This document shows, in pieces, positions 270 to 46,755 of a stretch of 59,096 nt of DNA. Position 1 is the stretch's first letter. Every line of letters starts with the position of its first letter. Under the pieces are notes generated by a model. That model searched no databases, was not told where the DNA came from, and was given only the letters and a program-made list of their open reading frames with translations. A program made the position numbers and the translations under genes. The stretch comes from a virus, in IMG/VR virus record IMGVR_UViG_3300017782_000016, positions 1 through 59,096 of that record. One strand, given 5' to 3'.

Positions 270-577
270 TGGAATTAGATTTCACAGAACAAATTAAGAG
301 TAACGCCAGTCTTTGGGAGAATATCCGCAAAAAGAAAGAGCGTATTAAACGAGGCTCACCAGAAAAAATGCGTAAGCCTGGAGAAAAGGGTGCACCCACA
401 AAAGAGCAAATCGAAAGAGCTAAAGGTGAGGCAATGACCCCCGCCCAAAAGAAAAAGTTTATGAGGCTTGAAAAAGAGGTCTCATTAAAAGATTTCATAA
501 AAAAATATGGCGAAGAAAAAGGCAAAGCTATTTATTACGCAACACTCACAAAAATGGCTAAAGCTACGTGTAAATAA
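269..577 (+). CDS. Small basic, probably virion-associated protein
   Basis: A 102-aa Lys/Glu-rich protein. It carries a SPEKMRKPGEKGAPTKEQIERAKGE segment shortened here to its core KMRKPGEKGAPTKEQ, and a C-terminal helix-rich part with KKYGEEKGKAIYYATLTKMA. The latter kind of motif recurs in small proteins of marine tailed phages that accompany head genes (family recollection, not searched). The first six residues MELDFT are the same as those of the head-associated protein starting at 46764, suggesting a shared N-terminal targeting or processing peptide. Start chosen for the TAATG overlap with the preceding gene. Function is unproven; a packaged or head-assembly protein is the best guess. Confidence 0.7.
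   Translation: MELDFTEQIKSNASLWENIRKKKERIKRGSPEKMRKPGEKGAPTKEQIERAKGEAMTPAQKKKFMRLEKEVSLKDFIKKYGEEKGKAIYYATLTKMAKATCK
568..573 (+). promoter_or_regulatory. GTGTAA promoter-like element, 9 bp before the ATG at 583
   Basis: Copy of the recurrent hexamer; it lies inside the last codons of the preceding gene and precedes the small membrane-protein gene. Confidence 0.55.
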
Positions 578-582
578 ATAAG

Positions 583-750
583 ATGATATCCGAAATACTA
601 AATCAATCCACAGGTGAACTTTTCAAGATGGCTTTATCGCTCGTCGGTATTACTTGCTTGATTTTGCACATACTACCTAAAAGCGAGAAAAAATCTGGCT
701 TCTTCGGATTCATACAAGAAATCATGAAATTTTTAAAAGCCAAAAAATGA
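583..750 (+). CDS. 55-aa single-pass membrane peptide
   Basis: A short gene with start ATG 583 and stop TGA 748-750. The product begins MISEILNQSTGELFKM, then has one hydrophobic stretch (about residues 17-31, ALSLVGITCLILHIL), then a Lys-rich tail with GFFGFIQEIMKFLKAKK. It is preceded at 9 bp by the GTGTAA element and its stop overlaps the ATG of the PEP-CTERM gene (ATGA), which supports it as a real gene. Possible roles are a holin/antiholin-type peptide or a membrane partner of the surface protein that follows; neither is shown by the sequence. Confidence 0.6.
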   Translation: MISEILNQSTGELFKMALSLVGITCLILHILPKSEKKSGFFGFIQEIMKFLKAKK

Positions 751-1415
751 AAAACCTAATTGCTACTCTCCTTTTCGCTACCACTACATTATCTGCCCTT
801 TCTCTGGAGCCACCAGACCTAACGCCAGATACAAGTTTAAATCTAACTTGGATGACCTTACAAAGTTTTGATTTAACCAAAAATCAAAATTATACAAGAC
901 CAGATGGAGAAGATTGGGGTTATGATGATGATGAATACTTCTACAATGTAGCAAAATTCAGTATTGAAACCCTTGGTACTTATTCAGTGCTCAATACATC
1001 TTTCAATGCAGATTATATAGGTGTAGACAGACAGTTCGGAGAAAATGAAACTTTACTACCTAACGGCACACCAGTTTGGATGAGAGACACAATGATTTAT
1101 ATTTATGATGATATATTTAATCCTTTGACACCAACAAATCCTTTATACTTTGCTGACAATGACGACTATGACGAGTACGAAGGCGAGTTAGAAGATGGTG
1201 ATTTATTGTTCTTTTTGGAATTAGATGATTTAGAGATAGATACAGAATATTATGCAGTTATTACAACTTATGAACCTAAAGTTGCTGGAGATGGCTGGAT
1301 GATGATTACTGGTCCAGGTGCAGTATCAATTGATATCATTCCAGAGCCTGCTTCGTATGCTTTGATGATTGGATTTGCATCATTCCTTTACATAGCGATC
1401 AAACGCCGTAAATAA
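747..1415 (+). CDS. PEP-CTERM sorted surface protein encoded by phage
   Basis: A 222-aa protein with all parts of an exosortase substrate. These are an N-terminal signal peptide (about residues 1-19, ending ALS), an acidic Tyr-rich body, and a C-terminal signal: PEP at 199-201, a hydrophobic segment about 203-217, and the basic end KRRK. The body (GTYSVLNTSFNADY..., a YDDIFNPLTPTNPL segment, then a YYAVITTY strand and ITGPGAVSI) resembles the beta-sandwich of bacterial secreted PEP-CTERM proteins. By family knowledge such proteins are exported by Sec and cleaved and anchored by host exosortase (EpsH/XrtA type). The gene overlaps the 55-aa membrane gene and is probably host-derived. Likely places of action are the host cell surface or extracellular matrix, for example masking receptors; that is inference. 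Confidence 0.85.
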   Translation: MKNLIATLLFATTTLSALSLEPPDLTPDTSLNLTWMTLQSFDLTKNQNYTRPDGEDWGYDDDEYFYNVAKFSIETLGTYSVLNTSFNADYIGVDRQFGENETLLPNGTPVWMRDTMIYIYDDIFNPLTPTNPLYFADNDDYDEYEGELEDGDLLFFLELDDLEIDTEYYAVITTYEPKVAGDGWMMITGPGAVSIDIIPEPASYALMIGFASFLYIAIKRRK

Positions 1416-1421
1416 GTGTAA
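1416..1421 (+). promoter_or_regulatory. GTGTAA promoter-like element, 8 bp before the ATG at 1430
   Basis: The element forms part of a small inverted repeat AAGTGTaaaaACACTT just before the start codon. It begins at the stop of the PEP-CTERM gene. Confidence 0.6.
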
Positions 1422-1429
1422 AAACACTT

Positions 1430-2299
1430 ATGGCAAGTGAAGGCGGAGACGAATATATAATCCTAAGTAAATTTGGTAGTGACACTACTCATCTTCTAAC
1501 TGGCGTACAAGATGTTTCGTTTAGCCAAAACGTTCAAGAAGAATCTGTAATGTTATTAGGTACAGATCACACTGATTACAATATAACGGGCCCAACAACA
1601 ACTAATTTAACTTTTAGTAAAGTATTTGCTAATGACGATATTGTCGACTCTACATTAACGGGTCAACGCTTAAGTGGAGCCTTTGTATATGGTGATAGGG
1701 CAATGGTTTTTGATTTTAGTTACATTGTAGGTTATTCTATAAATGTAAATATGGGAGATGTGCCCAGACTGCAATGTTCCATAAATGTTTTAGGGGACTT
1801 AAGTGGAGACAGCAGTAATGGTAACTTGTCTCATGTACAAGATCACTTTTTAAAACCAGCGTTAAAAGAAACACCAATGGAGTTGATTCCACAAACAGGA
1901 ATTAACATCACTTATGATAAATCAACAACGTTAGACCAAGTACAAAGTTTTTCTTTATCTAGGGCTTTTCCTTGGGATCCTTACTATCGTATAGGTTCTT
2001 TAGGTCCAGCTCAAGCTGTTTTAAATGGACCTATTTCTGAAGAGGTGTCTATAGATTTTGAAGTCGAAGATTATGTATTTGAAAATAAAACTGGATATAA
2101 TTCTTCAGCACCTGGTGCAAGCACAATTAGAAACAGTAATGAAATCAGCTTATCTATTTCATCAACAACTGGACTTTTGAAAACATACACGGTAAATAAT
2201 CACAGATTAGTTTCAGAAAACATATCAACCAGAGTTTCAGATACTCCAATAGCATCTTTAACATATAGAGGAATTCGCCCTGGAATCAGACCAAACTAA
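1430..2299 (+). CDS. Two-domain tail-tube-like protein
   Basis: A 289-aa beta-rich protein made of two related halves. Each opens with a VQ-x16-G signature: VQDVSFSQNVQEESVMLLG at residue 26 and VQSFSLSRAFPWDPYYRIG at residue 171. The same signature occurs twice in the minus-strand tail-tube candidate (15416-16810) and twice in the 1651-aa tail adhesin (30130-35085), so these form a paralogous family. A tail-tube or tail-terminator fold fits the pattern and the phage context, but the assignment rests on this internal comparison. No Shine-Dalgarno sequence is seen before the ATG; only the GTGTAA element precedes it. Confidence 0.7.
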   Translation: MASEGGDEYIILSKFGSDTTHLLTGVQDVSFSQNVQEESVMLLGTDHTDYNITGPTTTNLTFSKVFANDDIVDSTLTGQRLSGAFVYGDRAMVFDFSYIVGYSINVNMGDVPRLQCSINVLGDLSGDSSNGNLSHVQDHFLKPALKETPMELIPQTGINITYDKSTTLDQVQSFSLSRAFPWDPYYRIGSLGPAQAVLNGPISEEVSIDFEVEDYVFENKTGYNSSAPGASTIRNSNEISLSISSTTGLLKTYTVNNHRLVSENISTRVSDTPIASLTYRGIRPGIRPN

Positions 2300-2307
2300 T
2301 AAAATAG

Positions 2308-2313
2308 GTGTAA
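2308..2313 (+). promoter_or_regulatory. GTGTAA promoter-like element, 9 bp before the ATG at 2323
   Basis: Sits in the 23-bp gap between two tail-tube-like genes; no ribosome binding site accompanies it. Confidence 0.55.
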
Positions 2314-2322
2314 TAAATATAT

Positions 2323-3156
2323 ATGGCATACATAAGTTTTAGGGATTTACCAATTTACATAGCGGCTGGCGACAACGCCTTAGCAGAAGGAGAAAGCAGT
2401 TCATTAATGGTTCACGCTAACCAAGGTTCTATTTCATACACTCCTAATGTACAATCAACTAGACTTTTAGGTCAAACACCAGATGCTGGTAAAGATTATT
2501 TAATCGCTGGACCATTTTCTGCGAGTTTATCATTTTCTTTCTTTTTAAAAAATGGTGAATTTATACCTACTGCTCATACTGGTGATAGTAAGCTGTCCTT
2601 TGCGTTTGGAGATAAAGATGGACTAAGGGGTACTAACATGTATTTAAATTCATTTTCTTATACGTTAGCGCCATATGCACCCGTGCAAGTTAATTGTGAG
2701 TTTGGCATATACTCAAAACCAGAAGGGAAAATAGCATCAGTTGGCACTACTAATCTAGGACCACAACCAGGCGCAGCTGCTAGTAGTCAATATGCACACG
2801 GAGCATATTCTACTCTTACTAATCCAGTCGCAGGTACATTAACAGTCGAAAATGCGGCTTATCAATTTACAACAAGTAGACAACCAGTATACGCAATCGG
2901 AGCACTAACTCCAAGTGAAGTTTTACAATTAACTGCAGAACATCAAGTTAGTATAGCGGGAGATAACATTGACGCACTCGTAGGAGTCGGCGGAGTTGAG
3001 GAAGGAGCTGCAGTTTTAGATTTAAAAGCTCCATCTGCTCCCACCGTTACAATTATGAAATCAACTGTCAATGGTATAGTTACTGCACAAACTATGAATG
3101 CAAGTGCTGGAGGAGTAGCTCAAGGCACTACTACTATACAACAATCCTTGTTGTAG
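2323..3156 (+). CDS. Tail-tube-like protein, single copy of the family domain
   Basis: A 277-aa beta-rich protein. It has a slightly altered version of the family signature (ANQGSISYTPNVQSTRLLG near residue 33), then GPFSASLSFSFFLKNGEF and NMYLNSFSYTLAPYAPVQVN. The last of these aligns by eye with the GNCYLSDYTVDASVGDFPTV segment of the main tail-tube candidate. The C-terminal third is Ala/Val/Thr-rich and has no recognisable domain. It is probably a virion protein of the tail or neck. Divergence from its neighbour suggests an old duplication. Confidence 0.65.
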   Translation: MAYISFRDLPIYIAAGDNALAEGESSSLMVHANQGSISYTPNVQSTRLLGQTPDAGKDYLIAGPFSASLSFSFFLKNGEFIPTAHTGDSKLSFAFGDKDGLRGTNMYLNSFSYTLAPYAPVQVNCEFGIYSKPEGKIASVGTTNLGPQPGAAASSQYAHGAYSTLTNPVAGTLTVENAAYQFTTSRQPVYAIGALTPSEVLQLTAEHQVSIAGDNIDALVGVGGVEEGAAVLDLKAPSAPTVTIMKSTVNGIVTAQTMNASAGGVAQGTTTIQQSLL

Positions 3157-3191
3157 TGTTGAATTTTTACGCAAATCGTTTACTATAAAAT

Positions 3192-6134: not shown

Positions 6135-7968
6135 TCAAAAACCCCTTAAAAGGGAAAATGTTAATCAACAAGTTTTAGAACTTGAGGGATACCTTGAGGA
6201 CAATAAAGCTAAATATTGGTTGTACAAATTTCTTAAAGATAACATTACGTTTTCAACGCAATTACTTACTGGTATAGAATTGTTTCCGTTTCAACACATG
6301 GCAGTTAAGGCTATGATGGAGAATGATTATTTTCTAGGGGTGTGGTCGCGTGGTATGTCAAAATCCTTTTCTACGGGTATTTTTGCGCTTTTGGACGCAT
6401 CTCTGAACCAAGGGGTACATATAGGAATTATATCAAAGTCTTTTAGGCAGTCAAAAATGATCTTTAGAAAGATAGAAGATATAGCTGCAGATAAAAAAGC
6501 CGAGTTGTTTCAACAATGCATAGGCAAAGTGACCAAGTCAAATGATGAGTGGTCTATGCAAATAGGTAAAAGCCGTATTACAGCTTTGCCTTTAGGTGAC
6601 GGTGAAAAACTTCGTGGTTTCCGTTTCCAAAGAATTATTATTGACGAGTTATTGCTCATGCCAGAGAAAATTTATAATGAAGTTATTATGCCGTTCTTGG
6701 CTGTTGTTGAAAACCCAACAGAAAGACAAAAGATTAAAGATGCTGAAGATGAAATGATAAAGTTAGGTAAAATGACAGAAGAAGAAAGAACTGAGTGGCC
6801 AAGTAATAAAATGATAGGACTTTCATCTGCGTCTTACAAGTTTGAGTATTTATATAAGCTATATCAAGCATATGAGAATATGATATTTAATCCTGGAGCA
6901 AAAAACCAAGGTAGAAGATGTATTATGCAGTTTTCTTATGATGCGGCACCTAAAGCTTTGTATGATGAAAACTTAATTAGCCAAGCTAGGGGTTCTATGA
7001 GTCAGTCTCAAATTGATCGAGAGTTTAATGCTATATTTACTGATGATAGCGCAGGTTACTTTAAAATTAGTAAGATGGCCGATTGCACGATTGTGGATGG
7101 AGAATCTCCCTGTGTTGAAGTAGCAGGCGATCCAGATGCAGAATATATCATGGCGTTTGACCCATCGTGGTCCGAATCTGAAACATCTGATGATTTTGCT
7201 ATACAAGTCCTTAAATTAATGCCTCAAGAAAAGAAAGCTGTTGTGGTGCACAGTTATGCTTTACCAGGAACAAATCTAAAGAAGCACATAATATATTTCA
7301 AATACATATTAGAACACTTCAATATTATCATGATTGTAGGGGACTACAATGGTGGTGTACAATTTTTAAACTCAGCAAATGAAAGTGACATATTTAAACG
7401 AGCTAACTTACATATTGGCTGTTTTGATGCGGATTTTATAAACCCACAGAACTATGTATCAGATTTAAAAGAAGCCAGAAGACAATATAATGTTTCTAGT
7501 CGTGTGATATGTAATTTACGTAAACCAACATCTCAATGGATCAGAAACGGAAACGAAATGTTACAAACTTCTTTTGATAGAAGAAAATTATACTTTGCAG
7601 CCACAGCCATGGATGATAACTATTCGTTACAGAAATCCAAAAAAATACCTATCAAGGATTTAAAGTTTTCTAAATACGAAGACGAAAAGAATGTTGGCGC
7701 AAAAATGATAGAGTTTATAGAGCATCAAAAAGATATGCTAGACTTAACAAAAGCAGAATGTGCGCTTATACAGGTTACAACCTCCGTAGGAGGCACACAA
7801 AACTTTGACTTACCACCTAATTTAAAAAGACAAAAGGGAGCAGATAGACCTAGAAAGGACTCTTATTCTGCTTTAGTGCTTGGAAACTGGGGCATGAACA
7901 TATATTACGACATGATGGACATACCTTTAGACAATAATATTGGCTTTACTCCAATGTTTATTAATTAA
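6115..7968 (+). CDS. terL: Large terminase subunit (packaging ATPase/nuclease)
   Basis: A 617-aa protein, about the length of T4 gp17. The N-terminal ATPase has a Walker-A-like SRGMSKS at 78-84, preceded by the adenine-motif-like FPFQHMAV. Walker B is IIIDE with D177 and E178, and a GLSSASYK coupling-type motif follows. The C-terminal RNase H-like nuclease shows acidic residues in MAFDPSW (about D349) and VGDYNGG (about D410). By family knowledge it translocates DNA through the portal and cuts concatemers. Start chosen by the 20-bp overlap with the nuclease gene. It is followed by a 53-bp regulatory gap. Confidence 0.93.
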   Translation: MSWETGNQKPLKRENVNQQVLELEGYLEDNKAKYWLYKFLKDNITFSTQLLTGIELFPFQHMAVKAMMENDYFLGVWSRGMSKSFSTGIFALLDASLNQGVHIGIISKSFRQSKMIFRKIEDIAADKKAELFQQCIGKVTKSNDEWSMQIGKSRITALPLGDGEKLRGFRFQRIIIDELLLMPEKIYNEVIMPFLAVVENPTERQKIKDAEDEMIKLGKMTEEERTEWPSNKMIGLSSASYKFEYLYKLYQAYENMIFNPGAKNQGRRCIMQFSYDAAPKALYDENLISQARGSMSQSQIDREFNAIFTDDSAGYFKISKMADCTIVDGESPCVEVAGDPDAEYIMAFDPSWSESETSDDFAIQVLKLMPQEKKAVVVHSYALPGTNLKKHIIYFKYILEHFNIIMIVGDYNGGVQFLNSANESDIFKRANLHIGCFDADFINPQNYVSDLKEARRQYNVSSRVICNLRKPTSQWIRNGNEMLQTSFDRRKLYFAATAMDDNYSLQKSKKIPIKDLKFSKYEDEKNVGAKMIEFIEHQKDMLDLTKAECALIQVTTSVGGTQNFDLPPNLKRQKGADRPRKDSYSALVLGNWGMNIYYDMMDIPLDNNIGFTPMFIN

Positions 7969-7992
7969 AGTTATCAAAGTTACTTTAACTTT
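7967..7992 (+). repeat. AAAGTTA direct and inverted repeats before the portal gene
   Basis: Two copies of AAAGTTA (7967-7973 and 7976-7982) are followed by the inverse TAACTTT (7986-7992); the last two can form a 7-bp stem with a 3-base loop. Directly downstream are the GTGTAA element and a TATAAT box, so this may be an operator or an RNA hairpin. Confidence 0.5.
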
Positions 7993-8011
7993 GTGTAAAG
8001 AACTTTATAAT
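7993..8011 (+). promoter_or_regulatory. GTGTAA-N7-TATAAT promoter before the portal gene
   Basis: GTGTAA at 7993-7998 and TATAAT at 8006-8011, with 7 bp between. The same arrangement and spacing recur at 14230-14248. The start codon is 23 bp from the hexamer, so a short leader would exist if transcription starts after TATAAT. Confidence 0.6.
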
Positions 8012-8021
8012 ACATATTGAT

Positions 8022-9968
8022 ATGCCAAGAAAATATACAAAAAAATCAGATTATTGGAATAAATTCAACCAACCACAACAAGTTGTTTCAGAGGCTTCGG
8101 TAAACGTAGAGCCTGCTAGTTTAGGAGCAGCTTATCATGTTTCAGAAGCTTCATACGGTCGAGCTGGTGCAGCAAACGCAACAAGTCAAAGATCTAGCGC
8201 TAGAATCAATAGATCCGCAGTAACTCCCGCACTTAATAAATATAGTCAAATTCGAGGTGGATTGTTACCTTTTGAATTAACAACAGATGGTGTTAATGTT
8301 AGGGACGCTATAGAGCTTTGCCAAAAAGCTTATGCCAATGTTCCGATTTTTAGAAATACTATAGATATGATGTCCGAGTTTGCTAATACGGATATATATC
8401 TAGAGGGAGGTAACGAAAGTTCCAGAAACTTCTTTGATAAGTTATTTACGAGAATTAAATTATGGGATTTGAAAGACCAGTATTTCAGAGAGTATTATAG
8501 AAGTGGCAATATCTTTTTATACAGAATAGATGGTAAATTTAATTTAGAAGATTTTAAAAAGTTCTCTAGAAGTGTCACGGAAGAGCCTGGAGAGAACAAA
8601 TTTCCACTAAAGTATATTGTTTTAAATCCGTTTGAGATTGTAGCAAAACGAAGCACTGTGTTTAATACCTCTGACGGAGCTTATGCTAAAATACTTTCTG
8701 AGTTTGATTTAGAAAGATTAGCAAACCCTAAAAATGACTATGATCAAGCTATATATGATGCATTAGATCCAGAAGTCAAAAAGCAAATTAAAGATGGAGC
8801 ATATTTTAAGGATGGATTAAAAATTAATCTAAAGAACGACAGATTGGCATATTCCTTCTATAAAAAACAAGATTATGAGCCATTTGCTATACCTTTTGGA
8901 TTTCCAGTATTAGAAGATATTAATGCTAAAATGGAAATGAAGAAGATGGACCAAGCAATCATGAGAACCGTAGAAAATGTGATACTTATGATTACAATGG
9001 GTACTGAACCCGAAAAAGGTGGTATCAATCATCACAATGTCAAAGCAATGCAATCTCTGTTTGCAAATGAATCAGTAGGTCGTGTATTAGTATCTGATTA
9101 TACTACAAAAGCTGATTTCATTATTCCAGATATCAATAAGGTTGTTGGCCCAGGTAAATACGAAGTAATTAACAAAGATATCAAGGAAGGTCTTCAAAAC
9201 ATCATACTTAATGAAGATAAGTACAATGGTGCACAAATCAAAGCTAGAGTTTTCTTGGATAGATTAAAAGAAGCTAGAGAAGCTTTCATTAACGATTTTC
9301 TACAACCAGAAATAAGAAGGGTGGCAAAAGATTTAGGTTTTAGATCTTACCCAACAGTTAAATTTAAAGATATAGATTTAAGGGACGAAGTACAACTGAT
9401 GAGAGTGGCAACTAGACTTATGGAGCTAGGCATTCTTACAGCTGAACAAGGTATGGATATTATTCATACAGGTCGATTCCCAGAATCACAAGAATTAGAA
9501 CAAGCGCAAGATAAGTTTGTTGAACAGCGTAAGAAAGGGCATTACAACCCGATTGTTGGTGGTATACCGATGATAGAAGACGATGCAATTGACGCTCCTA
9601 AACAGAATGTACCTGGAGTTCCAGGACGACCTGTAACAAAACCACAAAACAGAATATCAAGAGAAGCAATACAAGCTACAGTGTATGAAATTGAAGCTTT
9701 GCACTCTTTAGCATCAGAAGAAATGTTAAAGAAAATTAACAAGAAAAAGCTTAATAAAAACCAAACTTCAATGATCAATAAATTGTGCGAATCTGTTGTG
9801 TGTAGCACTGCAAAAGAAAATTGGACAAATTTAGCTATTTCTTGTGTAAATGATTTTACTAACATTGAGAAACTAAGCATTTTAAACGAAGTTTATGATG
9901 TTTCAGATTCACACCAATTAGAAATTTATCCATCAGCAATTTTATACCATTCAAATGAACAAAAATAA
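8022..9968 (+). CDS. Portal protein
   Basis: A 648-aa protein directly downstream of the large terminase and upstream of core, protease and capsid genes, the usual portal location. The N-terminus (about 1-75) is Ala/Ser/Gln-rich and likely flexible. The body contains VRDAIELCQKAYANVPIFRN, FREYYRSGNIFLYRIDG and the helical FVEQRKKGHYNPIVGG, typical of long myovirus-like portals that form the dodecameric DNA gate. The C-terminal 90 residues carry a Lys-rich helix and an acidic end. It overlaps the core protein gene by 14 bp. Identity is inferred from length, position and style, not from a conserved catalytic motif. Confidence 0.8.
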   Translation: MPRKYTKKSDYWNKFNQPQQVVSEASVNVEPASLGAAYHVSEASYGRAGAANATSQRSSARINRSAVTPALNKYSQIRGGLLPFELTTDGVNVRDAIELCQKAYANVPIFRNTIDMMSEFANTDIYLEGGNESSRNFFDKLFTRIKLWDLKDQYFREYYRSGNIFLYRIDGKFNLEDFKKFSRSVTEEPGENKFPLKYIVLNPFEIVAKRSTVFNTSDGAYAKILSEFDLERLANPKNDYDQAIYDALDPEVKKQIKDGAYFKDGLKINLKNDRLAYSFYKKQDYEPFAIPFGFPVLEDINAKMEMKKMDQAIMRTVENVILMITMGTEPEKGGINHHNVKAMQSLFANESVGRVLVSDYTTKADFIIPDINKVVGPGKYEVINKDIKEGLQNIILNEDKYNGAQIKARVFLDRLKEAREAFINDFLQPEIRRVAKDLGFRSYPTVKFKDIDLRDEVQLMRVATRLMELGILTAEQGMDIIHTGRFPESQELEQAQDKFVEQRKKGHYNPIVGGIPMIEDDAIDAPKQNVPGVPGRPVTKPQNRISREAIQATVYEIEALHSLASEEMLKKINKKKLNKNQTSMINKLCESVVCSTAKENWTNLAISCVNDFTNIEKLSILNEVYDVSDSHQLEIYPSAILYHSNEQK

Positions 9969-14191: not shown

Positions 14192-14222
14192 GGGTCACTC
14201 TTCGGAGTGGCCCTTTTTTTTT
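14192..14222 (+). terminator. Rho-independent terminator after the capsid gene
   Basis: Stem GGGTCACTC / GAGTGGCCC closed by a TTCG tetraloop (one T-G wobble), followed by nine T (14214-14222). Placed 22 bp after the capsid stop, it would insulate the abundant head transcript. Confidence 0.95.
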
Positions 14223-15368: not shown

Positions 15369-15395
15369 AAAAAAACCCGCCTTTCGGCGGGTTTT
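15369..15395. terminator. Bidirectional terminator between converging genes
   Basis: Six-bp GC stem CCCGCC / GGCGGG with TTTC loop, flanked by an A run on the left and TTTT on the right, so it works for the plus-strand connector genes and the minus-strand tail-tube operon. Confidence 0.95.
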
Positions 15396-18086: not shown

Positions 18087-18661
18087 AGTTGTATGTTTTC
18101 AAACTCCTTTTTGTATCTTTTGAGAAAGTCTGATATATATTTAGTATTTGCAAATTTTACCTTTCTTACACGTTTTTCTACTTGGATACCCAAACCAGAT
18201 CTACTAGAATTAGAAGGTTTTTTAATGTAGTATCCTAGTCCAGATAAGCCAGTTTCTATAGATCTAGCCCAACTTCTGCCAGGCATATAAGGTAAAGGTG
18301 TCACTTCAAAAATTTCTTTTGGCGTAGGTAAAATAACGGAAAATACAATTTTTTGACCTACGGCTCTACCTAAGTCTAAATTAGTTTTTTGTAATAGTTC
18401 TATGATGGGTTGTAATGGATCGGTACCCTGTTCGAAGCCTATAAAAGAAAAAAGATTTGTAATACCATTTAATGTCCCGCTTATATTTTCGGCTTCTACT
18501 CCACCTTTAATTTCTAACGAAACTGGGTGGTTTAAAAAATCTGCAATCATTTCATTTTTCTTTTTTTGAAAGCTGGATTTTACTATTTTCCTAGTTTGTT
18601 GTAAAGCTATAGTTGGTATTTGTCTCCTTAGAGATTTTTGAATTTCTAAATTTAAAGCCAT
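18083..18661 (-). CDS. Candidate tail-completion protein
   Basis: A 192-aa basic protein. It has an N-terminal amphipathic helix (ALNLEIQKSLRRQIPTIALQQTRKIVKSSFQKKKNEMI), a middle PTPKEIFEVTPLPYMPGRSWARSIETGLSGLGYYI, and a Lys-rich C-terminus. Position between the head-closure candidate and the tail operon, with overlap on both sides, suggests a neck or tail-terminator component (HK97 gp10 kind). No conserved motif proves this. Confidence 0.5.
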   Translation of the reverse strand: MALNLEIQKSLRRQIPTIALQQTRKIVKSSFQKKKNEMIADFLNHPVSLEIKGGVEAENISGTLNGITNLFSFIGFEQGTDPLQPIIELLQKTNLDLGRAVGQKIVFSVILPTPKEIFEVTPLPYMPGRSWARSIETGLSGLGYYIKKPSNSSRSGLGIQVEKRVRKVKFANTKYISDFLKRYKKEFENIQL

Positions 18662-19119
18662 TATTCTTCCATTGGTTTGAGGTAGAAGTGATAATATTGT
18701 GGGCCAAATATACCAGTGGGATTTCCTTTACTATCTATTGTGTATTTTCTACCTTCAAATTCACATCTTGTAGCATCTTTAAGTAATTCAAAACCAGCGT
18801 TATCTACAGTAATTCTAACCTCTCCATCCATTAATTTAAAGTCTAATTGACTACCCACATTACCATCTACAAATCCTTGTTCTTTTGCATCGATATATTT
18901 AATTCTAGCTAGGATAGTTGTAGATGAAACGGTTTTAGTAACTGTTTTTTCTCCGCCCCCACTTCTCCCATATATGCCGTTAAACTCAGCACTAGCAGCT
19001 ATAGAGACTGTTTGCCCTTCCTTATATACAGTTATATTTCTAGCGAATGTTTGGTGGATATCATCTATGATAGATTTGATAGTATTCTTCTGGGATTCTG
19101 ATATGAGTGGAGTTGCCAT
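18661..19119 (-). CDS. Candidate head-closure protein
   Basis: A 152-aa protein with a helical start (SESQKNTIKSIIDDIHQTF) followed by beta strands (NITVYKEGQTVSIAAS, SSTTILARIKYID, GEVRITVDN, RKYTIDSKGNPTGIFGPQYY). This helix-then-beta-barrel plan is like head-tail stopper proteins (SPP1 gp16 / phage "head closure" type). It is the first gene of the minus-strand neck operon, driven by a GTGTAA element exactly 8 bp from its ATG. Its stop overlaps the next ATG by 1 bp. Confidence 0.55.
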   Translation of the reverse strand: MATPLISESQKNTIKSIIDDIHQTFARNITVYKEGQTVSIAASAEFNGIYGRSGGGEKTVTKTVSSTTILARIKYIDAKEQGFVDGNVGSQLDFKLMDGEVRITVDNAGFELLKDATRCEFEGRKYTIDSKGNPTGIFGPQYYHFYLKPMEE

Positions 19120-19127: not shown

Positions 19128-19133
19128 TTACAC
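19128..19133 (-). promoter_or_regulatory. GTGTAA element (minus strand), 8 bp before the start at 19119
   Basis: It is the left arm of a divergent pair TTACAC-N7-GTGTAA and drives the neck operon leftward. Confidence 0.65.
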
Positions 19134-19140: not shown

Positions 19141-19146
19141 GTGTAA
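19141..19146 (+). promoter_or_regulatory. GTGTAA element (plus strand) before the tail operon
   Basis: Right arm of the divergent pair. The start codon is 19 bp away, and here GAGGAATAAGG lies between them as a ribosome binding site. Confidence 0.6.
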
Positions 19147-33100: not shown

Positions 33101-35085
33101 CTATGGATAATTTTTCTTTAGCTAATTTGTCTTTTGGTTTTGACATGCAAGATTTTAAAAACAAAAACTACTTAAACAATTTTGATGCTGCTAGAATATA
33201 TGTAGATAGAAAGAATGAAAGATGCGTGCCTAATACTGGAGGTTTAGAGGTATTTGATATATCGGACAAACCTTTAAACACACCTTATCCAGAGACAAGT
33301 ACAAATTTAAACTTCGCTCATCCAGAGGTCAGCCCAGGTGTGGCTAACTTAAGTTCGAGAAATGTTAGCGGTAAAGTGGGATTAAGTGAAGACGGTTTTG
33401 TTTTTGACCCATTGTATACTGCTGGCAAAGTTTATACTGATAAGACTTTAGATGGTAATCGTTACTATTTAAGTAATTTCTTTTCTACTGTAGGAGAAAG
33501 GAGTAATTTTGATTTTGTAAATGCTCCAATGTTACAATTCGCAAATGAAAGTAGTTTCCTTGATGATGGTGCTGCGGAATTAAATTCAGCCTTAACTTAT
33601 TTATTGTGGATAAAACCTTATACATTGCCTTATTTTCAAAGTAATACTTTTAAGAGTAAAAGTGCTAGTAGGTTATCTACTTTAATGAGTCAAGCTTTAA
33701 ACAATGAATCTAGGCCTAGATTTACCGTTGATAGTTTTGGCGCTCTTGGTTTTCAATCTTGGAGTATGCATGGTCAAGTTTTTACTGGCGACACTTTTAC
33801 AAATGCCAATGGTCGTCAAATACAAAGATTAGATATACCTAGAATTTTTGATACTGGTTCAAAAGTAGCCACAACTAGAATGCAGCTTTCTGGTAGTTCA
33901 ATAATAGCTAAAAGAGATGGAGTTGCGTATACTGATCAAAATGCTGGCACTAATACAAATTTCTCTGGAACAAGAGGTGCATCTGTTAATACATTTAAAT
34001 TTAGTTCAGAACAAGTAGTTCAAACTGGGGTCTGGCAACAAGTTGTTATGACCTTAGAAAACAGAACTGGTAGTTTAGGTATAGATCATAGTGATTTTGG
34101 AACAACATTACAGTTTTATCGCAACGACACTAAACTAAACACAATTGACATATTATCAACAAGATCAGAATATAATGGTGGTAGTACTAATTTTGCTACA
34201 AATGGTTTGATAGATTTAAGTGATCAAGCTAATTTTGGGGCAAATGCTTTACCTTCTAGTGGTATTGGTGTTATTCAAAATCTTGGTAGAGCAAGTGAAG
34301 GTTTTAGAATTGGTGGCACTTTTGCTGGTGATGAAGAACCTTACGATTTGTTTAAAGGTGAAATAGCGGTAGCAGCCGTATATAACAAGGCATTAACTCA
34401 TGAAGAAGTTAAAGATAATTACAATAGAATTAGACAAAGGTTTGATCACAAGGAAAGGTCAAATGCTAAAAGTATACAGGTTAGAAGGCAGGGTACTTTA
34501 TTCCAACCAGGAGCCAATAATTGCGAACTAAATGGAAGCGAATTGAAAGAAGATTATGTAACTTTTTTTGCTACTGAGTCTGATAGAGAATTTATGTTAG
34601 TTTATCTTGAAGAATCTGATTATTTAAATATTGAAGGTACATCTTTTGAAATAGAAAACGTAACTACAAATATTAATGGCACATATGTTTTTCACGGTCC
34701 TAACGATGCTTTTCCAGGTAATTTTGTTCATCAAGACCGTCCATCGTATAGATTTTTTAGAGATAAGAAAAAATGGAAATTCTATAATAGTGGCGTTACT
34801 ATTGAAGAAACAGCACGAATAAGAGGTAACAAGGTTTATGATGCTGACTATGACTTGGGTTCAGATGGCACTATAAGCAACAGGTATTCTATTGCAGAAT
34901 TTACTTCACCTCCTAATTTTGTAAATGTCGTTGAAGTTGAACCGTTAATTACAATAGATGAAGGTGAAGCTAAGATAGGCAAGGTGTATTATGAAAAAGA
35001 TGATGATAGTTTTAGATTTATAGTTTACGATATAAAATCAAATGTAAAAATAACTATCAATACAATAGACGCACAAAATAATTAA
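30130..35085 (+). CDS. Tail adhesin with tube-like, C-type lectin and LamG domains
   Basis: A 1651-aa multidomain protein. Residues about 26-170 form a tail-tube-like domain (VQNLSFSFSNNQVNINGLG). At about 396-553 there is a C-type lectin fold with its hallmarks: WVALTDSE near 452, FKWSNG, YWNDLEPNN near 495-503, GPWNDL, and GFYIE. At about 879-1015 there is a second tube-like domain (VQNFDITLPVERKSVYQIG). At about 1140-1440 there is a LamG/concanavalin-like domain (LTYLLWIKPYTLP, WQQVVMTLENRTG, FKGEIAVAAVYNKALTHEEV). The EPN triplet in the lectin is the mannose-type ligand motif in known C-type lectins. I infer a receptor-binding tail-tip protein. Its stop overlaps the stop of the convergent gene by 4 bp. 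Confidence 0.75.
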   Translation: MSDNSQRPVIGYENIALFQGNSDANLTGSNSGDALKFIPQVQNLSFSFSNNQVNINGLGSKKTLINQNTLAPDIRLNISKVEDFENDLFSTLIPYGDFKDGDLNKDRNFYAIIGDIKGSDVSSKTLSGKNVISFGNCFLENVTLTQDANAMLMSNYSFVASNIQAQTFSPRVIYHNSFEQLQTGDYSPYYGGGTVEAKDLEDSIGLLRITNHGIQGAIGTGEGIVLSDQDTKARGYETVTGFRSLAIYDGAIINGIAFHNKTGDGLSLPTDEYYHSGNLSTGIFNTNSIYEVTGNFRTNNDAAYLDIFFQTGDGISSNNLHATVRKTIKPNLTTRTDDHAGTYISTPFSVTGSFNPDHYGAVKGSGAPSGCIMISSRKLNGYGGLTGIKVEPRDSTYKYVSVPGGITFENAFNQAVQNHNGRLAVIDTLEKFHKFTGTFANDAKDQSILANGWVALTDSESYGASESNAESTLALKRAKFKWSNGVENIFTDDIYWNDLEPNNAGGLEDFIHFRGTTLTPSTTEGVPATASSGPWNDLNATSTTPTGFYIEQINSAVFISDLTIRKLDEFQLDAPSIDLTGPQIQNTTGYFNELNTYYKSPAKNFSKGKNTKIVIKKKNEGTIVFKDNFASGIVDNDYAVAPSGVEGFSFSRLFHNGLNSEAGDEVTTGINRADFFNQTQGNPAIQSSPPSLEIKINVGDTGFAYGNPSSVYSGAKAAAVRIGQDIIGGGNNGTGFKASGNYILQGEFRVSMPGGYTGAVARVDISDYESHNTPQVTPGGLMGDGFATQSQTFVPFDMRITGFNQRDARTSGNFKWFDLTVFSQKGGFPNAQTLNPPSPDGSTSFTNFLNSGSCAAQFRNITVREVQNFEEENFLFETDTVQNFDITLPVERKSVYQIGNKYPSKRKRLYPNNCEISLAALVSNINKENETEYERYLTVDSAKKTTTANLKSFIEENAKYEILISGVGDNDKKYSLHIDDAYLTAQDISSSMDNFSLANLSFGFDMQDFKNKNYLNNFDAARIYVDRKNERCVPNTGGLEVFDISDKPLNTPYPETSTNLNFAHPEVSPGVANLSSRNVSGKVGLSEDGFVFDPLYTAGKVYTDKTLDGNRYYLSNFFSTVGERSNFDFVNAPMLQFANESSFLDDGAAELNSALTYLLWIKPYTLPYFQSNTFKSKSASRLSTLMSQALNNESRPRFTVDSFGALGFQSWSMHGQVFTGDTFTNANGRQIQRLDIPRIFDTGSKVATTRMQLSGSSIIAKRDGVAYTDQNAGTNTNFSGTRGASVNTFKFSSEQVVQTGVWQQVVMTLENRTGSLGIDHSDFGTTLQFYRNDTKLNTIDILSTRSEYNGGSTNFATNGLIDLSDQANFGANALPSSGIGVIQNLGRASEGFRIGGTFAGDEEPYDLFKGEIAVAAVYNKALTHEEVKDNYNRIRQRFDHKERSNAKSIQVRRQGTLFQPGANNCELNGSELKEDYVTFFATESDREFMLVYLEESDYLNIEGTSFEIENVTTNINGTYVFHGPNDAFPGNFVHQDRPSYRFFRDKKKWKFYNSGVTIEETARIRGNKVYDADYDLGSDGTISNRYSIAEFTSPPNFVNVVEVEPLITIDEGEAKIGKVYYEKDDDSFRFIVYDIKSNVKITINTIDAQNN

Positions 35086-35492
35086 TCTTCTATCTTTAAG
35101 CCAGCTTTGTCAGCTTTTGCTTTAGTCTTTTCCCAGTTTTCTTTCATTTGCTGTGGGTGTAATTTACCGTTTGTCATTTTACTATAATCGGCATATTGTT
35201 TTTGTTTTACTGGGTCTACACCATTTTTTTGAGCTCTTTTTTCTGAAGCTTCTGCAGACTTATCAAAAAGTTCTCCGTATGTGTAATTTTTATTTTGAGC
35301 GGAGGTTACGAATGATTTATCGCTATACTCGTCTACATTAGTGTCAAAAGATAGGTTAGGATTAACATAAACACGTCTCCAGAGGCCTTTCTCGCGACCG
35401 TTGGTACCGTGATACTCGTGCTTCTCCATCATCCCTTGAAAGACCTCTACGACCTCTCCTGTTTCTTCGTTTTCGTATAAATATAATGGCAT
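35082..35492 (-). CDS. FmdB-like small protein without the zinc cysteines
   Basis: A 136-aa protein starting MPLYLYENEETGEVVEVFQGM, the layout of FmdB-type zinc ribbons (MPTYEYRC...FEVFQSM) but with no cysteines at all. Charged helices follow (LFDKSAEASEKRAQKNGVDP). FmdB-like genes are frequent in marine phages; function is unknown. It is isolated from the upstream Hsp20 gene by a terminator. Confidence 0.5.
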   Translation of the reverse strand: MPLYLYENEETGEVVEVFQGMMEKHEYHGTNGREKGLWRRVYVNPNLSFDTNVDEYSDKSFVTSAQNKNYTYGELFDKSAEASEKRAQKNGVDPVKQKQYADYSKMTNGKLHPQQMKENWEKTKAKADKAGLKIED

Positions 35493-35511: not shown

Positions 35512-35551
35512 AAAAAAAATCCCCCCTATGTTTTTTACACATAAGAGGGAT
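35512..35551 (-). terminator. Terminator after the Hsp20 gene (minus strand)
   Basis: Reading leftward: stem ATCCC...TATGT pairing with ACATA...GGGAT (35519-35551, with an internal loop), then eight T (A at 35512-35519 on the plus strand). The hairpin loop contains GTGTAA on the minus strand. Confidence 0.8.
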
Positions 35552-35891: not shown

Positions 35892-35924
35892 GCATTTATT
35901 TTTGCATTTACCGTGCCAAAAACA

Positions 35925-37010: not shown

Positions 37011-37363
37011 TAGAAAGGAATTTCGTCGTCTGAACTAGATGCTGCAGCAGCTTCTGTTTCCTTTTTAGAACTTAGGAACTGCACATTATCACCCTTAATA
37101 TATAATTTAGAGTTTTTCTTGCCATCTTTTTCCCACACATCTTGGAATAAGCGACCTTCTACTAGAACTTTACTACCCTTAGATAGGTATTTTGCAGTGT
37201 TTTCTGCAGTTTTATTCCACGTTTCTACATCAATGTAATGAGCTTTATCTTTCTTCACTACATCATTAACAGCTACTACTAGCCGTGTCACTTGGTTGTC
37301 TCCAACCTTCTTATTTTCTGGATCTCTTGCGAGATTGCCCATGATTATTGATTTATTGAACAT
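37010..37363 (-). CDS. ssb: Single-stranded DNA-binding protein
   Basis: A 117-aa OB-fold protein of the bacterial SSB family: MFNKSIIMGNLARDPENKKVG, RLVVAVNDVV, HYIDVETWNKTAENTAKYLSKGSKVLVEGRL. It ends in the classic acidic tip DDEIPF that recruits partner proteins. It coats single-stranded DNA in replication and recombination. It overlaps the sigma-like gene upstream by 11 bp and the glycosyltransferase downstream by 1 bp. It may work with the UvsX recombinase encoded at the right end. Confidence 0.93.
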   Translation of the reverse strand: MFNKSIIMGNLARDPENKKVGDNQVTRLVVAVNDVVKKDKAHYIDVETWNKTAENTAKYLSKGSKVLVEGRLFQDVWEKDGKKNSKLYIKGDNVQFLSSKKETEAAAASSSDDEIPF

Positions 37364-37922
37364 ATTTTTTTATCTCCTTTAAATAGTTATTATGTATATT
37401 AATACATCCTTGTATCGATAAGTCAAGCTCTTTTGCAATTTTTTTCCAAGGAACTAGTTTTTTATCGTCTGAATATCTAAGCTGAAAGATTTTTTTAACT
37501 CTTTCATCTTTAGATTTATTAACAGCTTTAAATATTTTTTTGATGCTTTCGTTCTCTTCGAGAACTTTTATGCCTGGATCGCAAGCGATCTCATTTAATT
37601 GTTTGACTTTAATATTTTCAAACGATTGGTGTGGGAATTTTAAATTTTTATTATATATATTTAAGCATTTCCATTTAGTTATATTACCTAGATATGTGCT
37701 GAATTTAGTGTTTTTTGTTTCATCATAATTGATTATAGCATCATAGATACGGTAATTTTTTTCATCAAGTATATCTTCTTTTCTGATACCTTCGAATGTA
37801 TTAGGTATATACCTATTTACCATTTCAACATAGATGCCAGAATGCTTTTCAATCAAGAGTTTTAAAGAGCTTTCGTCTTTATTTTCTTTTACGTTTTTAA
37901 TTAATTCAAATTCTGTTTCCAT
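37353..37922 (-). CDS. RNA polymerase sigma factor, phage type
   Basis: A 189-aa protein, near the size of the T4 late sigma gp55 (185 aa). Region 2 lies at about 20-90: LIEKHSGIYVEMVNRYI, KEDILDEKNYRIYDAIINYDETKNTKFSTYLGNITKW (core YDETKNTKFSTYLG). Region 4 lies at about 140-185 with a helix-turn-helix: RVKKIFQLRY, PWKKIAKELDLSIQGCINIHNNYL. It overlaps the dNMP kinase by 22 bp and SSB by 11 bp in a minus-strand operon. I infer that it directs host RNA polymerase to phage promoters; the GTGTAA elements are the obvious candidate targets. Confidence 0.8.
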   Translation of the reverse strand: METEFELIKNVKENKDESSLKLLIEKHSGIYVEMVNRYIPNTFEGIRKEDILDEKNYRIYDAIINYDETKNTKFSTYLGNITKWKCLNIYNKNLKFPHQSFENIKVKQLNEIACDPGIKVLEENESIKKIFKAVNKSKDERVKKIFQLRYSDDKKLVPWKKIAKELDLSIQGCINIHNNYLKEIKKYVQ

Positions 37923-38476: not shown

Positions 38477-38759
38477 TATTTAACAACTCCCTTAACGCTT
38501 GTGATTCTTTATACATACCTATGTCAGATAACATTTCATCCATTCTAAACAGTTCATCAGAAATTTCAACTTCTTCGTTGATTTTTTTTACTCTAATGAC
38601 AGCTGCGACGTTAGCACCTAAACCTAATTCATCTATTATGTAGGTTAAAGCCTTATTTGCGGCTTCGTTCTTATTTTCAGCTATGACTACTGTAGTCCAA
38701 TCAGAACTACTACATAGATAAAAATCTTCTTTTTCTCCATCTAATTTTATTAAGAACAT
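38463..38759 (-). CDS. Unknown small protein
   Basis: A 98-aa protein beginning MFLIKLDGEKEDFYLCSSSDWTTVVIAENKNEAANKALTYI, then a charged C-terminal half. The VIAENKNEAANKAL part looks like a small alpha/beta repeat, not a named domain. It is the first gene of the minus-strand nucleotide/replication operon, with a divergent regulatory region upstream. Confidence 0.55.
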   Translation of the reverse strand: MFLIKLDGEKEDFYLCSSSDWTTVVIAENKNEAANKALTYIIDELGLGANVAAVIRVKKINEEVEISDELFRMDEMLSDIGMYKESQALRELLNNDRD

Positions 38760-38816
38760 GAAAAGAAGATATAATAAAAATTTCTAAAAGTCAATATTAC
38801 TTTTATATATTTATTA

Positions 38817-38834: not shown

Positions 38835-38861
38835 AAGATATTTTATATGTATATATATTAA

Positions 38862-38883
38862 CTCGCTCGCCCTTGCTCGCTCG
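38862..38883. repeat. CTCG tandem element
   Basis: CTCGCTCG, then CCCTTG, then CTCGCTCG: two identical octamers in an otherwise AT-rich gap, conspicuous for base composition. Confidence 0.6.
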
Positions 38884-38979
38884 TTAAACAACTTTATGTT
38901 ACACTGAAACTTACAAAATTCAAGTAAAAAATTTTATTTTTATTTTTTCAGCAAAAAGTATTGACTAATCAGAATGACA

Positions 38980-38985
38980 GTGTAA
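38980..38985 (+). promoter_or_regulatory. GTGTAA element, 13 bp before the nrdB-like ATG
   Basis: Overlaps the sigma70-like -10 (TAAATT 38983-38988), so this start may be read by either polymerase form. Confidence 0.5.
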
Positions 38986-38998
38986 ATTCTTATTACAT

Positions 38999-41616: not shown

Positions 41617-41620
41617 AAAT

Positions 41621-41626
41621 GTGTAA
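41621..41626 (+). promoter_or_regulatory. GTGTAA element, 8 bp before the ATG at 41635
   Basis: Fills the 18-bp gap after the ribonucleotide reductase genes; marks the switch from metabolism to tail-fibre genes. Confidence 0.6.
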
Positions 41627-41634
41627 ATACCTGT

Positions 41635-44900: not shown

Positions 44901-45080
44901 AGTACAGGAACCTTAACTGTTTTGGGTAATGAGCATATTAGTGGAAATTTAACAGTTAGCGGCAACCTAACAGTAGATGGAACAGGCTTACACTTACCAA
45001 ACCTAACCTCTGGTGATCCAAGTATCAGTGGTCAAATTTATTATGATGCAAACGGCTTTTTAAAGCGCTCTTTTGGCTAA
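41970..45080 (+). CDS. Tail fibre
   Basis: A 1036-aa protein. Near the N-terminus (about 85-150) three TGLxGATGEL repeats and related LLDTSTGLLQ segments suggest a trimeric repeat shaft. The body is Gly/Thr/Ser/Asn-rich beta sequence, with NNLNLERLQERYYAVTDNFV in the middle and beta-helix-like repeats near the end (ISGNLTVSGNLTVDGTG). The tail ends SGQIYYDANGFLKRSFG, as in many fibres of marine phages. Probably a trimeric side or tip fibre binding the host surface. Confidence 0.75.
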   Translation: MSDVNIRITTTEGATVITSTTGASHVVNDSASIQASVIASTDPAAEISTTSDGAADVTIDDTFFEPTIASDLLELRTATGLLDTSTGLLQSSITGLTGATGELFDLVTGLTGATGELSSSVTGLIGATGELSTATGILKTLSDNFDTSLNNTVNNKLDTNNPTATGFFSLDGVSGNKLAFLLNDGTARITPRNGVGLHLKTNATNNAAVSLKVEGTTTVTHDFFKDSGQTNGFADNSNHFHDITTINQITQQGIGNNLNLERLQERYYAVTDNFVRLATGLQATDVFSIYPDSLCHGFEGVMDGNNVVQHSGLHLGIATGTGTHIVETGVTGQAAFLSKHRVARTIGTNDIVETNSNGDVIGSAVLNITGLVASSNRSANAQRFFVSNTTPLGKSEPLEINFNFDHPLKIGQNVRMNFSQSFEGPIVAASLFGTVSNTGSGNGVITPQTADIELFGGNYKTTNEVPANALDLTGLAHGWSLESLSNGTRLGREGVLSLQDKSYTGLPGGPRSYNELLHITFTGGQQHGLEQNETVTLITNGQNDLIVHQNAYVIDAHATGAPTGMFAITGAVTFQPNNLNTLSNFNSTLKPFLSGQILKSISNTTGFNINGSTVSINTTEDHGLNVFDTVTINGLGNLPTDGASSPLDGTADTVRHLDGTFLVVDTPSAKNFKYLRVLGDAKDGSTLYQITGRGGAVGSTVSHYPNATALTSGSAAILSYGRLIRQHNLQTIEPQTGNWTIHRGSLDGIHNETLGDQLYTFFADNSGHYKSYQIGPGSQVDTHGIALGKSVYNNNYETIKIGYNTEKTSPSLSLGPNQKSAICLESAQETFNITDDIGNIITSVSKTGLLFNTDITANGSISSSGLVVGLTGARFNDVVDVTGSIGAQRISINASGPNDVAGVLEVGGHAEFISTVNVGTSRDDVNRLQLTSSSLGFVYGGTISNITRLNVDKIVPAISSNLELEASNTTIDMQKTFSTGTLTVLGNEHISGNLTVSGNLTVDGTGLHLPNLTSGDPSISGQIYYDANGFLKRSFG

Positions 45081-45085
45081 TTTAT

Positions 45086-45091
45086 GTGTAA
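45086..45091 (+). promoter_or_regulatory. GTGTAA element, 9 bp before the ATG at 45101
   Basis: Placed in the 20-bp gap between fibre and holin-like genes. Confidence 0.6.
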
Positions 45092-45100
45092 AACATTTTA

Positions 45101-45388
45101 ATGCCCGAAAATGAAGATAGACTAACTCGAATGGAGGAGAAGATAGATAAACTATCTGATGCTGTTATTTCAATTGCTAGAGCCGAAGAAAAATTAATTC
45201 AATTAGGAACTCTTACAGATGTTTTATTTAAAAAAATAGATGACATGGGAGAAAGAATGATTGAGATGGAAAAAACCTCGGCCGAAACAAAAGCCTTTAT
45301 GAATGGATTTAATAAAATTACTTGGGTATTTGTTAGTGGACTACTTACAGCATTAGCTGGTATAGTTGCATATAATTTGTGGGGTTAA
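45101..45388 (+). CDS. Holin-like protein (XhlA plan)
   Basis: A 95-aa protein with a coiled coil (RLTRMEEKIDKLSDAVISIARAEEKL, then KKIDDMGERMIEMEKT) and a single C-terminal membrane segment (ITWVFVSGLLTALAGIVAYNLW). This is the architecture of XhlA-type holin accessory proteins, which sit in the inner membrane at lysis. No endolysin is visible nearby in this window, so lysis genes must lie elsewhere or be unrecognised. Confidence 0.65.
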   Translation: MPENEDRLTRMEEKIDKLSDAVISIARAEEKLIQLGTLTDVLFKKIDDMGERMIEMEKTSAETKAFMNGFNKITWVFVSGLLTALAGIVAYNLWG

Positions 45389-45400
45389 TCTCCATTTTAT

Positions 45401-45406
45401 GTGTAA
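45401..45406 (+). promoter_or_regulatory. GTGTAA element, 8 bp before the ATG at 45415
   Basis: One of four such elements (41621, 45086, 45401, 46750) that each precede a single gene or gene pair in this region. Confidence 0.6.
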
Positions 45407-45414
45407 AATAGCTT

Positions 45415-46746
45415 ATGTCCAGAGAACATGTCAATTTATTCAGATCTGAAATCAAATCAGAAACAGGTGTAGACCAAACTACATACGAAGTACTTAGAAA
45501 AAAAATAATAAGAACCTTCATGGATACAGTTGAGGGCGCACCAAGACACGATTATGATAGTCGTCTGATCAGAGAATTTAATAATAGATGCGATCAATTA
45601 GGTTTCGACGATTCTATAAAAATAGTTCCAACAGATGCTGGAGGCACTTATATAGGTAATTTTGCTGGAATCCCAGCGCCAGTAGAAAACAACGCAATAC
45701 CTAATGAAAATTTTACAGGAAATAACACCCAAGATACTAATCCTGGTATTTATGGCTTTTTGTTTGAAAATTTTAACGGACATCCCGTAGGTCCAAGTGC
45801 TAATACCAATACAGAAGTCCAAATGTCTGGTTGGTATTTTCATTCACCAATGTTTACTAACACTTACAATTACAATACTTTAATGTTGGGCGCATTATTT
45901 TCTAAAGAATCCTATAACTTACTTGAAAGCGGACAACTGCTTGGTTATGGCGATTTTATGCAAGATAGAGTTTTAAAACTTTTTGGTCAAAATAACGCCA
46001 TGGCTTCTCCAGGCGTTAACTCTGATTTTAATTCAGAATTAAATAGATTATTTTTTAATGGTAGCCTTTTTACTAGCCCAATTACTATGATGGGAAATAC
46101 AGCTGGTGCTCCAGGATTAAATAGTTTTCAAACAGGTTATTGGTGTAGATATGATATTGGTTTTAACCTTGGAGAAAATGATTTTGCGCCATCGATTCCA
46201 ACAAATACAACAGGAATTTCTTTTGGCTGTTATGTTAAAATTGAAAAAGATGACCCCTTACTGGATTTAAACTTTGGTGGTATGTATATTAGACAAATAA
46301 CTGGTGATGGTACTAATCAAAGAGATTTTGTTGACGTTTTACAAGTAAAAGGCTCTAATTTTACGCAAACGCCAAGTATGATGGGCACAACTGATTACGC
46401 TACTGTAGCTGGTACTAACGGTTGTTATAATTGGGGTAATGGTCGTTCTCTTGAATCCGCTGGAGGTGGAGCGCAATTAAAATTATTGGAAACATTTCCC
46501 CCATTCGGAACTTCCGTAAGGGCTTTAGAAACAAAATTACAAACTGATGCAAGAGATTGGGTTTTACTCTCTGGTCGAACACCATACCTCACGGGAGATA
46601 TTAACCATATTCCACATACTGGAATTAATGCAGTTTTATTTTATGGGGAGAATCATGAGCATTTAGGTAAAGGGGTTAGTGGATTAAGTATTGACGATCC
46701 AGGTGCTATATATTTCTCACAACCTTTTGTAGAATTTTTATCATAA
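45415..46746 (+). CDS. Probable virion adhesin, unrecognised
   Basis: A 443-aa protein. The first ~65 residues are helical and charged (SREHVNLFRSEIKSETGVDQ, RKKIIRTFMDTVEG). The rest is Gly/Asn/Thr/Phe-rich beta sequence (NFNGHPVGPSANTNTEVQMS, GYWCRYDIGFNLGENDFAP). It looks like an attachment helix followed by a surface domain, consistent with a second tail or head decoration fibre. No domain can be named. Confidence 0.5.
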   Translation: MSREHVNLFRSEIKSETGVDQTTYEVLRKKIIRTFMDTVEGAPRHDYDSRLIREFNNRCDQLGFDDSIKIVPTDAGGTYIGNFAGIPAPVENNAIPNENFTGNNTQDTNPGIYGFLFENFNGHPVGPSANTNTEVQMSGWYFHSPMFTNTYNYNTLMLGALFSKESYNLLESGQLLGYGDFMQDRVLKLFGQNNAMASPGVNSDFNSELNRLFFNGSLFTSPITMMGNTAGAPGLNSFQTGYWCRYDIGFNLGENDFAPSIPTNTTGISFGCYVKIEKDDPLLDLNFGGMYIRQITGDGTNQRDFVDVLQVKGSNFTQTPSMMGTTDYATVAGTNGCYNWGNGRSLESAGGGAQLKLLETFPPFGTSVRALETKLQTDARDWVLLSGRTPYLTGDINHIPHTGINAVLFYGENHEHLGKGVSGLSIDDPGAIYFSQPFVEFLS

Positions 46747-46749
46747 AAA

Positions 46750-46755
46750 GTGTAA
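46750..46755 (+). promoter_or_regulatory. GTGTAA element, 8 bp before the ATG at 46764
   Basis: Last exact 8-bp copy in the window; it could also serve the glycan operon downstream, which has none of its own. Confidence 0.6.

Follow-up and report, generated by a model that had tools for sequence, protein, structure and literature searches.

GTGTAA is very likely the single -10-type element of a late phage promoter, which would be read by a phage sigma factor with the host core polymerase and would give mostly leaderless mRNAs. It was studied in the window, which is the whole 59-kb virus record analysed here and within whose full length all positions are counted, and in related contigs from an uncultured, mostly marine phage group that carries the same element. 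Single-element phage-sigma promoters, leaderless phage late mRNAs and -10 elements located 6-7 bp before ORFs are already known; what is new is that a distinct promoter specificity, tied to the start codon, and its candidate sigma factor occur across an uncultured phage group, and that GTGTAA promoters stand beside host-type promoters tied to start codons likewise. No relevant paper on GTGTAA as a phage promoter turned up in the literature searched.

Gene starts were throughout those of first-ATG ORFs, and spacing is given as the bases separating GTGTAA from the ATG. GTGTAA is found at a spacing of 8-9 bp at 8 of the 56 window starts, where 0.03 are expected (mean of 20,000 circular shifts of the starts); the maximum in the shifts was 2 matches, and none of the 20,000 reached 8. 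None of the 1,873 non-start ATGs in the window has GTGTAA at this distance. The element ranks first among all 4,096 hexamers at the 8-9 bp position in the window, with 7 occurrences against 2 for the next unrelated hexamer; the gene set used for this ranking omits the 55-aa ORF at 583, hence 7 rather than 8. The original prediction had listed eight genes with GTGTAA at 8-9 bp and five more at 13-23 bp; all thirteen coordinates are correct, and the spacings were reproduced on measurement (Table 1). It had also held that such a hexamer would occur by chance, but not at a fixed distance from starts. The window holds 28 copies against 33.8 expected; the number is not raised, and the position alone is unusual.

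Table 1. GTGTAA elements preceding genes of the window, and associated promoters, terminator and sigma factor gene
Feature	Position	Strand	Context
GTGTAA	568..573	+	9 bp before ATG 583 (55-aa ORF 583-750)
GTGTAA	1416..1421	+	8 bp before ATG 1430; near in 7/10 family members (relatives)
GTGTAA	2308..2313	+	9 bp before ATG 2323; near in 3/3 family members
GTGTAA	7993..7998	+	23 bp before ATG 8022 (gene after terminase); short leader predicted
Intrinsic terminator GGGTCACTCTTCGGAGTGGCCC-T9	14192..14213	+	Ends 16 bp before GTGTAA 14230
GTGTAA	14230..14235	+	18 bp before ATG 14254, directly behind terminator 14192-14213
GTGTAA	19128..19133	-	8 bp before ATG of 18661-19119(-); near in 7/8 family members
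GTGTAA	19141..19146	+	19 bp before ATG 19166
GTGTAA	21154..21159	+	16 bp before ATG 21176 (tape measure protein)
Phage sigma factor, 189 aa	37353..37922	-	Region 2 + C-terminal helix-turn-helix; proposed GTGTAA reader
Host-type promoter TTGACT-N17-TATCTT	38766..38794	-	6 bp before ATG at 38759; heads operon holding sigma gene
Host-type promoter TTGACT-N16-TAAATT	38961..38988	+	Before nrdB; conserved in G001, G002, G003, G009
GTGTAA	38980..38985	+	13 bp before ATG 38999 (nrdB); overlaps host-type promoter
GTGTAA	41621..41626	+	8 bp before ATG 41635
GTGTAA	45086..45091	+	9 bp before ATG 45101
GTGTAA	45401..45406	+	8 bp before ATG 45415
GTGTAA	46750..46755	+	8 bp before ATG 46764 (DUF5824 protein)

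The two elements at 19128-19133 (-) and 19141-19146 (+) lie back to back, and the leader of gene 19166 includes an SD-like GAGGAATAAGG. The element at 46750-46755 heads the glycosyltransferase operon 47787-59004, which is long and encodes several glycosyltransferases and an aminotransferase behind this one GTGTAA promoter. At the 8022 promoter, GTGTAA and a downstream TTATAAT are kept in about 25 relatives, and the distance of TTATAAT is fixed to GTGTAA, not to the ATG. The same region (window 7960-8022) has a conserved palindromic motif, AAAGTT..AAAGT(N)ACTTT(AA), just upstream of GTGTAA and shared with orthologues in contigs L001-L080 and L129; palindrome and TTATAAT are possibly an operator or a tandem promoter. 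Another GTGTAA, at 58999-59004, overlaps the stop codon of 57892-59004; the next gene, which leaves the window, has its ATG 36 bp further on, and genes in a similar location in G001-G003 have the element at 8-10 bp. Perhaps by chance, a copy at 35535-35540 (-) falls within the loop of a hairpin that resembles a terminator (ATCCCTC..GGGGGAT, then T8) and precedes 35082-35492 (-). A bidirectional terminator at 15372-15395 separates convergent units.

No deposited phage closely matched the first 25 kb of the window at the DNA level, but at least 160 relatives of the window terminase were found in viral metagenome contigs. GTGTAA lies exactly 8 bp before the ATG 67 times in 656 distinct upstream regions, where about 1.6 are expected. 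In nine long related contigs (window included), which are fragments and partly related to each other, the element is 8-10 bp from the ATG in 77 genes, which belong to 42 protein families; 49 of these are at 8, 17 at 9 and 11 at 10, with few at other single distances. Families were counted because the enrichment lists also hold other hexamers, apparently from single orthologous genes. Against the 77 for GTGTAA, 90 anagram hexamers average 1.6 in the nine contigs, and the two runners-up overlap the same site. A sharp peak close to start codons had been anticipated, and the scan of the window and its relatives gave one at spacing 8. The logo of 66 non-redundant sites has the consensus WWWWA-GTGTAA-WA, W-rich just upstream and WA just downstream, with no conserved sequence in the place of a -35 partner. 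No GTGTAA peak was found in T4 or in Pelagibacter phage HTVC008M.

Bacterial transcription starts prefer a pyrimidine at -1 and a purine at +1. T or C precedes the ATG in 48 of the 49 genes with spacing 8, versus 38% of overlapping genes. The pyrimidine-purine (Y-R) step keeps the same offset from GTGTAA even when the ATG is more distant, being found at nt 8-9 after the element in 73% of genes with spacing 10, in 55% with spacing 11-30 and in 30% of other GTGTAA; genes with spacing 9 are less clear, having the step at nt 9-10 in 71%. Read as a hexamer, TGTAAW lies 7 bp before the ATG, which fits the leaderless geometry of a -10 adjacent to the ORF (6-7 bp). Judged from sequence, this signature favours a promoter whose predicted transcription start is at the AUG.

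The candidate reader is the product of 37353-37922 (-), which matches phrog_351 (E=3e-10), Sigma70_r2 (E=7e-4) and, over residues 21-187, TIGR02937 (E=6e-9, below the curated cut-off). Its AF2 model (50 relatives; pLDDT 87, pTM 0.51) retrieved sigma32, sigmaH and sigmaE folds in Foldseek; the global TM is modest, which probably reflects a different placement of the two domains. By profile and model it is a divergent sigma-70-family protein with predicted region 2 and region 4 domains, the predicted C-terminal helix-turn-helix carrying a nearly invariant SIQGCINIH motif. A helix-turn-helix in region 4 would read a -35 element, yet none is seen at GTGTAA, and this counts against the best explanation. 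As its operon starts with a host-type promoter (Table 1), the sigma factor would be made early by the host polymerase; the operon also encodes SSB, a dNMP kinase and an HSP20-like protein. When viral contigs were scanned by the sigma alone, 248 had a relative. Contigs chosen only by sigma (L131-L205) show GTGTAA at 8-12 bp; among the 65 fetched loci whose sigma is only 41-49% identical, 84 genes from 17 families have the element at this distance from the ATG. The link between sigma and GTGTAA is a correlation within one phage lineage, and shared ancestry could explain it. One contig, G004, has the GTGTAA element with no sigma detected, possibly because the contig is incomplete. No convincing match to an RpoB/RpoC-like gene (PF04997, PF00562) was found in 8 and 17 records, with positive controls, although these contigs may be incomplete; the T7-type RNA polymerase profile PF00940 had no match, but its control was silent too. 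Compared with gp55 of HTVC008M, the sigma gave an hhalign probability of about 4% and only generic sigma region 2 similarity. The loci with a more distant sigma (L141-L205) have a broader GTGTAA-ATG spacing of 8-12 with a peak at 11, and short leaders of 2-3 nt are therefore suggested there.

Promoters of the form TTGAC-N16/17-TAnnnT are present in the same phages (TTGAC 75 versus 11 expected). Their -10 ends 5-9 bp before the ATG in 33 intergenic cases versus 0.1 in shuffles, and 5-8 bp before it in 30 of 45 in a second, independent set of contigs. These promoters match the standard consensus, and therefore -10 elements in these phages sit against start codons; GTGTAA, read as G + TGTAAW, shares the register of the host-type -10. 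The view that leaderlessness is peculiar to GTGTAA thus had to be corrected, as host-type early promoters in relatives also end 6-8 bp before the ATG. In G003, host-type promoters precede a DnaB-type helicase gene and a 229-aa gene located two genes before the PolIII-alpha gene; the helicase gene carries TTGAC/TAnnnT and lacks GTGTAA, the element found ahead of tail and tape-measure genes. The nrdB genes carry both promoter types and G003 72677, a GTGTAA gene, is inside the replication region, so the separation of early and late is not absolute. Bacteroidota sigma promoters (TTG..TAnnTTTG) were considered and were not enriched; the match at nrdB is better read as TTGAC-N16-TAAATT.

The element could instead act in translation, as a non-canonical signal for ribosome binding that takes the position of a Shine-Dalgarno sequence inside a longer leader. 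Its distance of about 8 bp is within the Shine-Dalgarno range, and the genes that carry it have no Shine-Dalgarno sequence of their own (0/64 in the main group and 0/84 in the second set); this lack, which the original prediction had pointed out, says little by itself, since few genes of these phages have SD-like sites in any case (about 10-16%, against a background of about 8%). A ribosome-binding signal is needed equally by operon-internal and overlapping genes, yet GTGTAA was found at none of the genes that overlap their upstream neighbour in the window, at 0 of about 275 in the nine contigs and at 1 of 505 in the second set; the claim that it marks breaks between units and is absent where genes overlap was upheld. 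The T-run of a terminator abuts the GTGTAA of one gene in G002 and G003, the stem ending 4 bp before it, and the promoter must therefore sit in the same last few bases before the ATG. Divergent genes with a more distant GTGTAA (in the 11-30 bp class, at 18-24 bp) carry SD-like sites instead (7/12, mostly one orthologous family). The -1 pyrimidine/+1 A signature and the host-type promoters that take the same place before the ATG also argue against a translation signal, which is very improbable.

If the element is transcriptional, it might be the -10 of a variant extended -10 promoter for the host's own sigma, with no need of a phage sigma. TGTAAW differs little from TATAAT, and the nrdB promoters pair TTGAC with a TAAATT that overlaps GTGTAA. 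However, TTGAC is found at only 2 of the 77 GTGTAA sites, both of them nrdB orthologues, the two motifs mark separate gene classes, and contigs selected by the phage sigma share GTGTAA; we regard this reading as unlikely. Binding of a phage transcription activator or repressor over host promoters would agree with the palindromic AAAGT(N)ACTTT at the 8022 promoter and its orthologues, but GTGTAA is non-palindromic, strictly oriented and held at a set distance from the start, and for most genes no separate -10 can be seen in the bases from GTGTAA to the ATG, which makes such a role extremely improbable. The lone -10-like phage promoter with (nearly) leaderless mRNAs that had originally been put forward came out as the best-supported reading in every computational test available: the peak at 8, the lack of a -35, the location at unit breaks only, the abutting terminators, the -1 pyrimidine/+1 A, the constant Y-R offset and the like behaviour of host-type promoters all point to it.

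Under the proposed mechanism, the phage sigma would be made early in infection from its host-sigma70-type promoter and, with the host core RNA polymerase, would open the DNA at GTGTAA without -35 contact. WWWWA-GTGTAA-WA would be the lone -10-type element of the late promoter, in which G + TGTAAW would take the place of a TATAAT hexamer, about 7 bp upstream of the transcription start, and transcription would begin about 9 nt downstream of GTGTAA. In most late units this would put the start on the A of the ATG or 1-2 nt upstream; with the start at or next to the ATG, the mRNA would be leaderless and so translated without a Shine-Dalgarno sequence. For a minority (genes 8022, 14254, 19166, 21176 and 38999) the start would lie 4-15 nt upstream of the ATG, leaving a short leader.

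A more doubtful extension is that nearly the whole phage programme runs on leaderless mRNAs, in a host that translates these as its main route or is reprogrammed by the phage; it is based on host-type early and phage-sigma late promoters both being tied to start codons by a fixed spacing. Flavobacteriaceae and Patescibacteria were considered as hosts from terminase relatives in one MAG each, but this assignment is too weak because of binning, and the leaderless promoter pattern in the Patescibacteria MAG was not above control. Separately, window 747-1415 and L089:4416-5090 encode a phage protein with a PEP-CTERM-like C-terminus (PEP, hydrophobic stretch, RRK) that scores just under the NCBIfam cut-off; exosortase sorting in the host may be hinted at by this protein. 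With the element, early and late transcription can be mapped from sequence alone across a widespread uncultured phage group, and a candidate new specificity of promoter recognition is defined for a small phage sigma. Whether these phages and their hosts translate leaderless mRNAs becomes directly testable, and the start codons and operon limits of these genomes are corrected as well.

Among known systems, gp36 of phiEco32 is the closest working analogue, a phage sigma acting with the host core polymerase on a single element with no -35 (PMC8948821). Its middle/late promoters have the consensus tAATGTAtA, with no -35 and a start 6-8 bp downstream, and the passages considered here do not describe them as leaderless (PMC8948821). 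One conserved element without a -35 (66-site logo) and the TGTA within it are common to both, whereas the consensus here is AGTGTAAWA; region 4 is missing from gp36, whereas the window sigma has a predicted C-terminal helix-turn-helix. The Y-R step at nt 8-9 would leave 8 nt between element and predicted start; the distance in phiEco32 is 6-8 bp. T4 late promoters have the consensus TATAAATA and use gp55 with gp33 and the clamp (PMC2988020). The analogy to them drawn in the original prediction stands as a functional likeness (a lone -10-like element, no -35, late genes), with no detectable relationship to gp55 (hhalign about 4%); TATAAATA is not matched here, and the T4 sites mostly end 24-28 bp before the ATG, leaving a leader. 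In HTVC008M (KC465899; L207-L209) a T4-type ATAAATA ends exactly 5 bp before the ATG in 8 genes, suggesting that late mRNAs of this T4-like phage may be leaderless too, unlike those of T4 itself.

The late promoters of phiKZ and AR9 also have a short element close to the start, and are read by phage multisubunit RNA polymerases (PMC5312081). Unlike in those phages, no such polymerase was found here in the 8 and 17 records searched. We know of no promoter or sigma in common with the Thermus phage phiYS40. Most middle and late mRNAs of that phage are leaderless (PMC3594737). In Deinococcus-Thermus a -10 about 6-7 bp before the ORF has been shown experimentally to drive leaderless mRNA (PMC12340547). 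The same -10-to-ORF geometry is present here, known from sequence, but where those bacteria use a host sigma and TANNNT, these phages have the phage-specific GTGTAA, and TTGAC-TAnnnT for the other class of genes.
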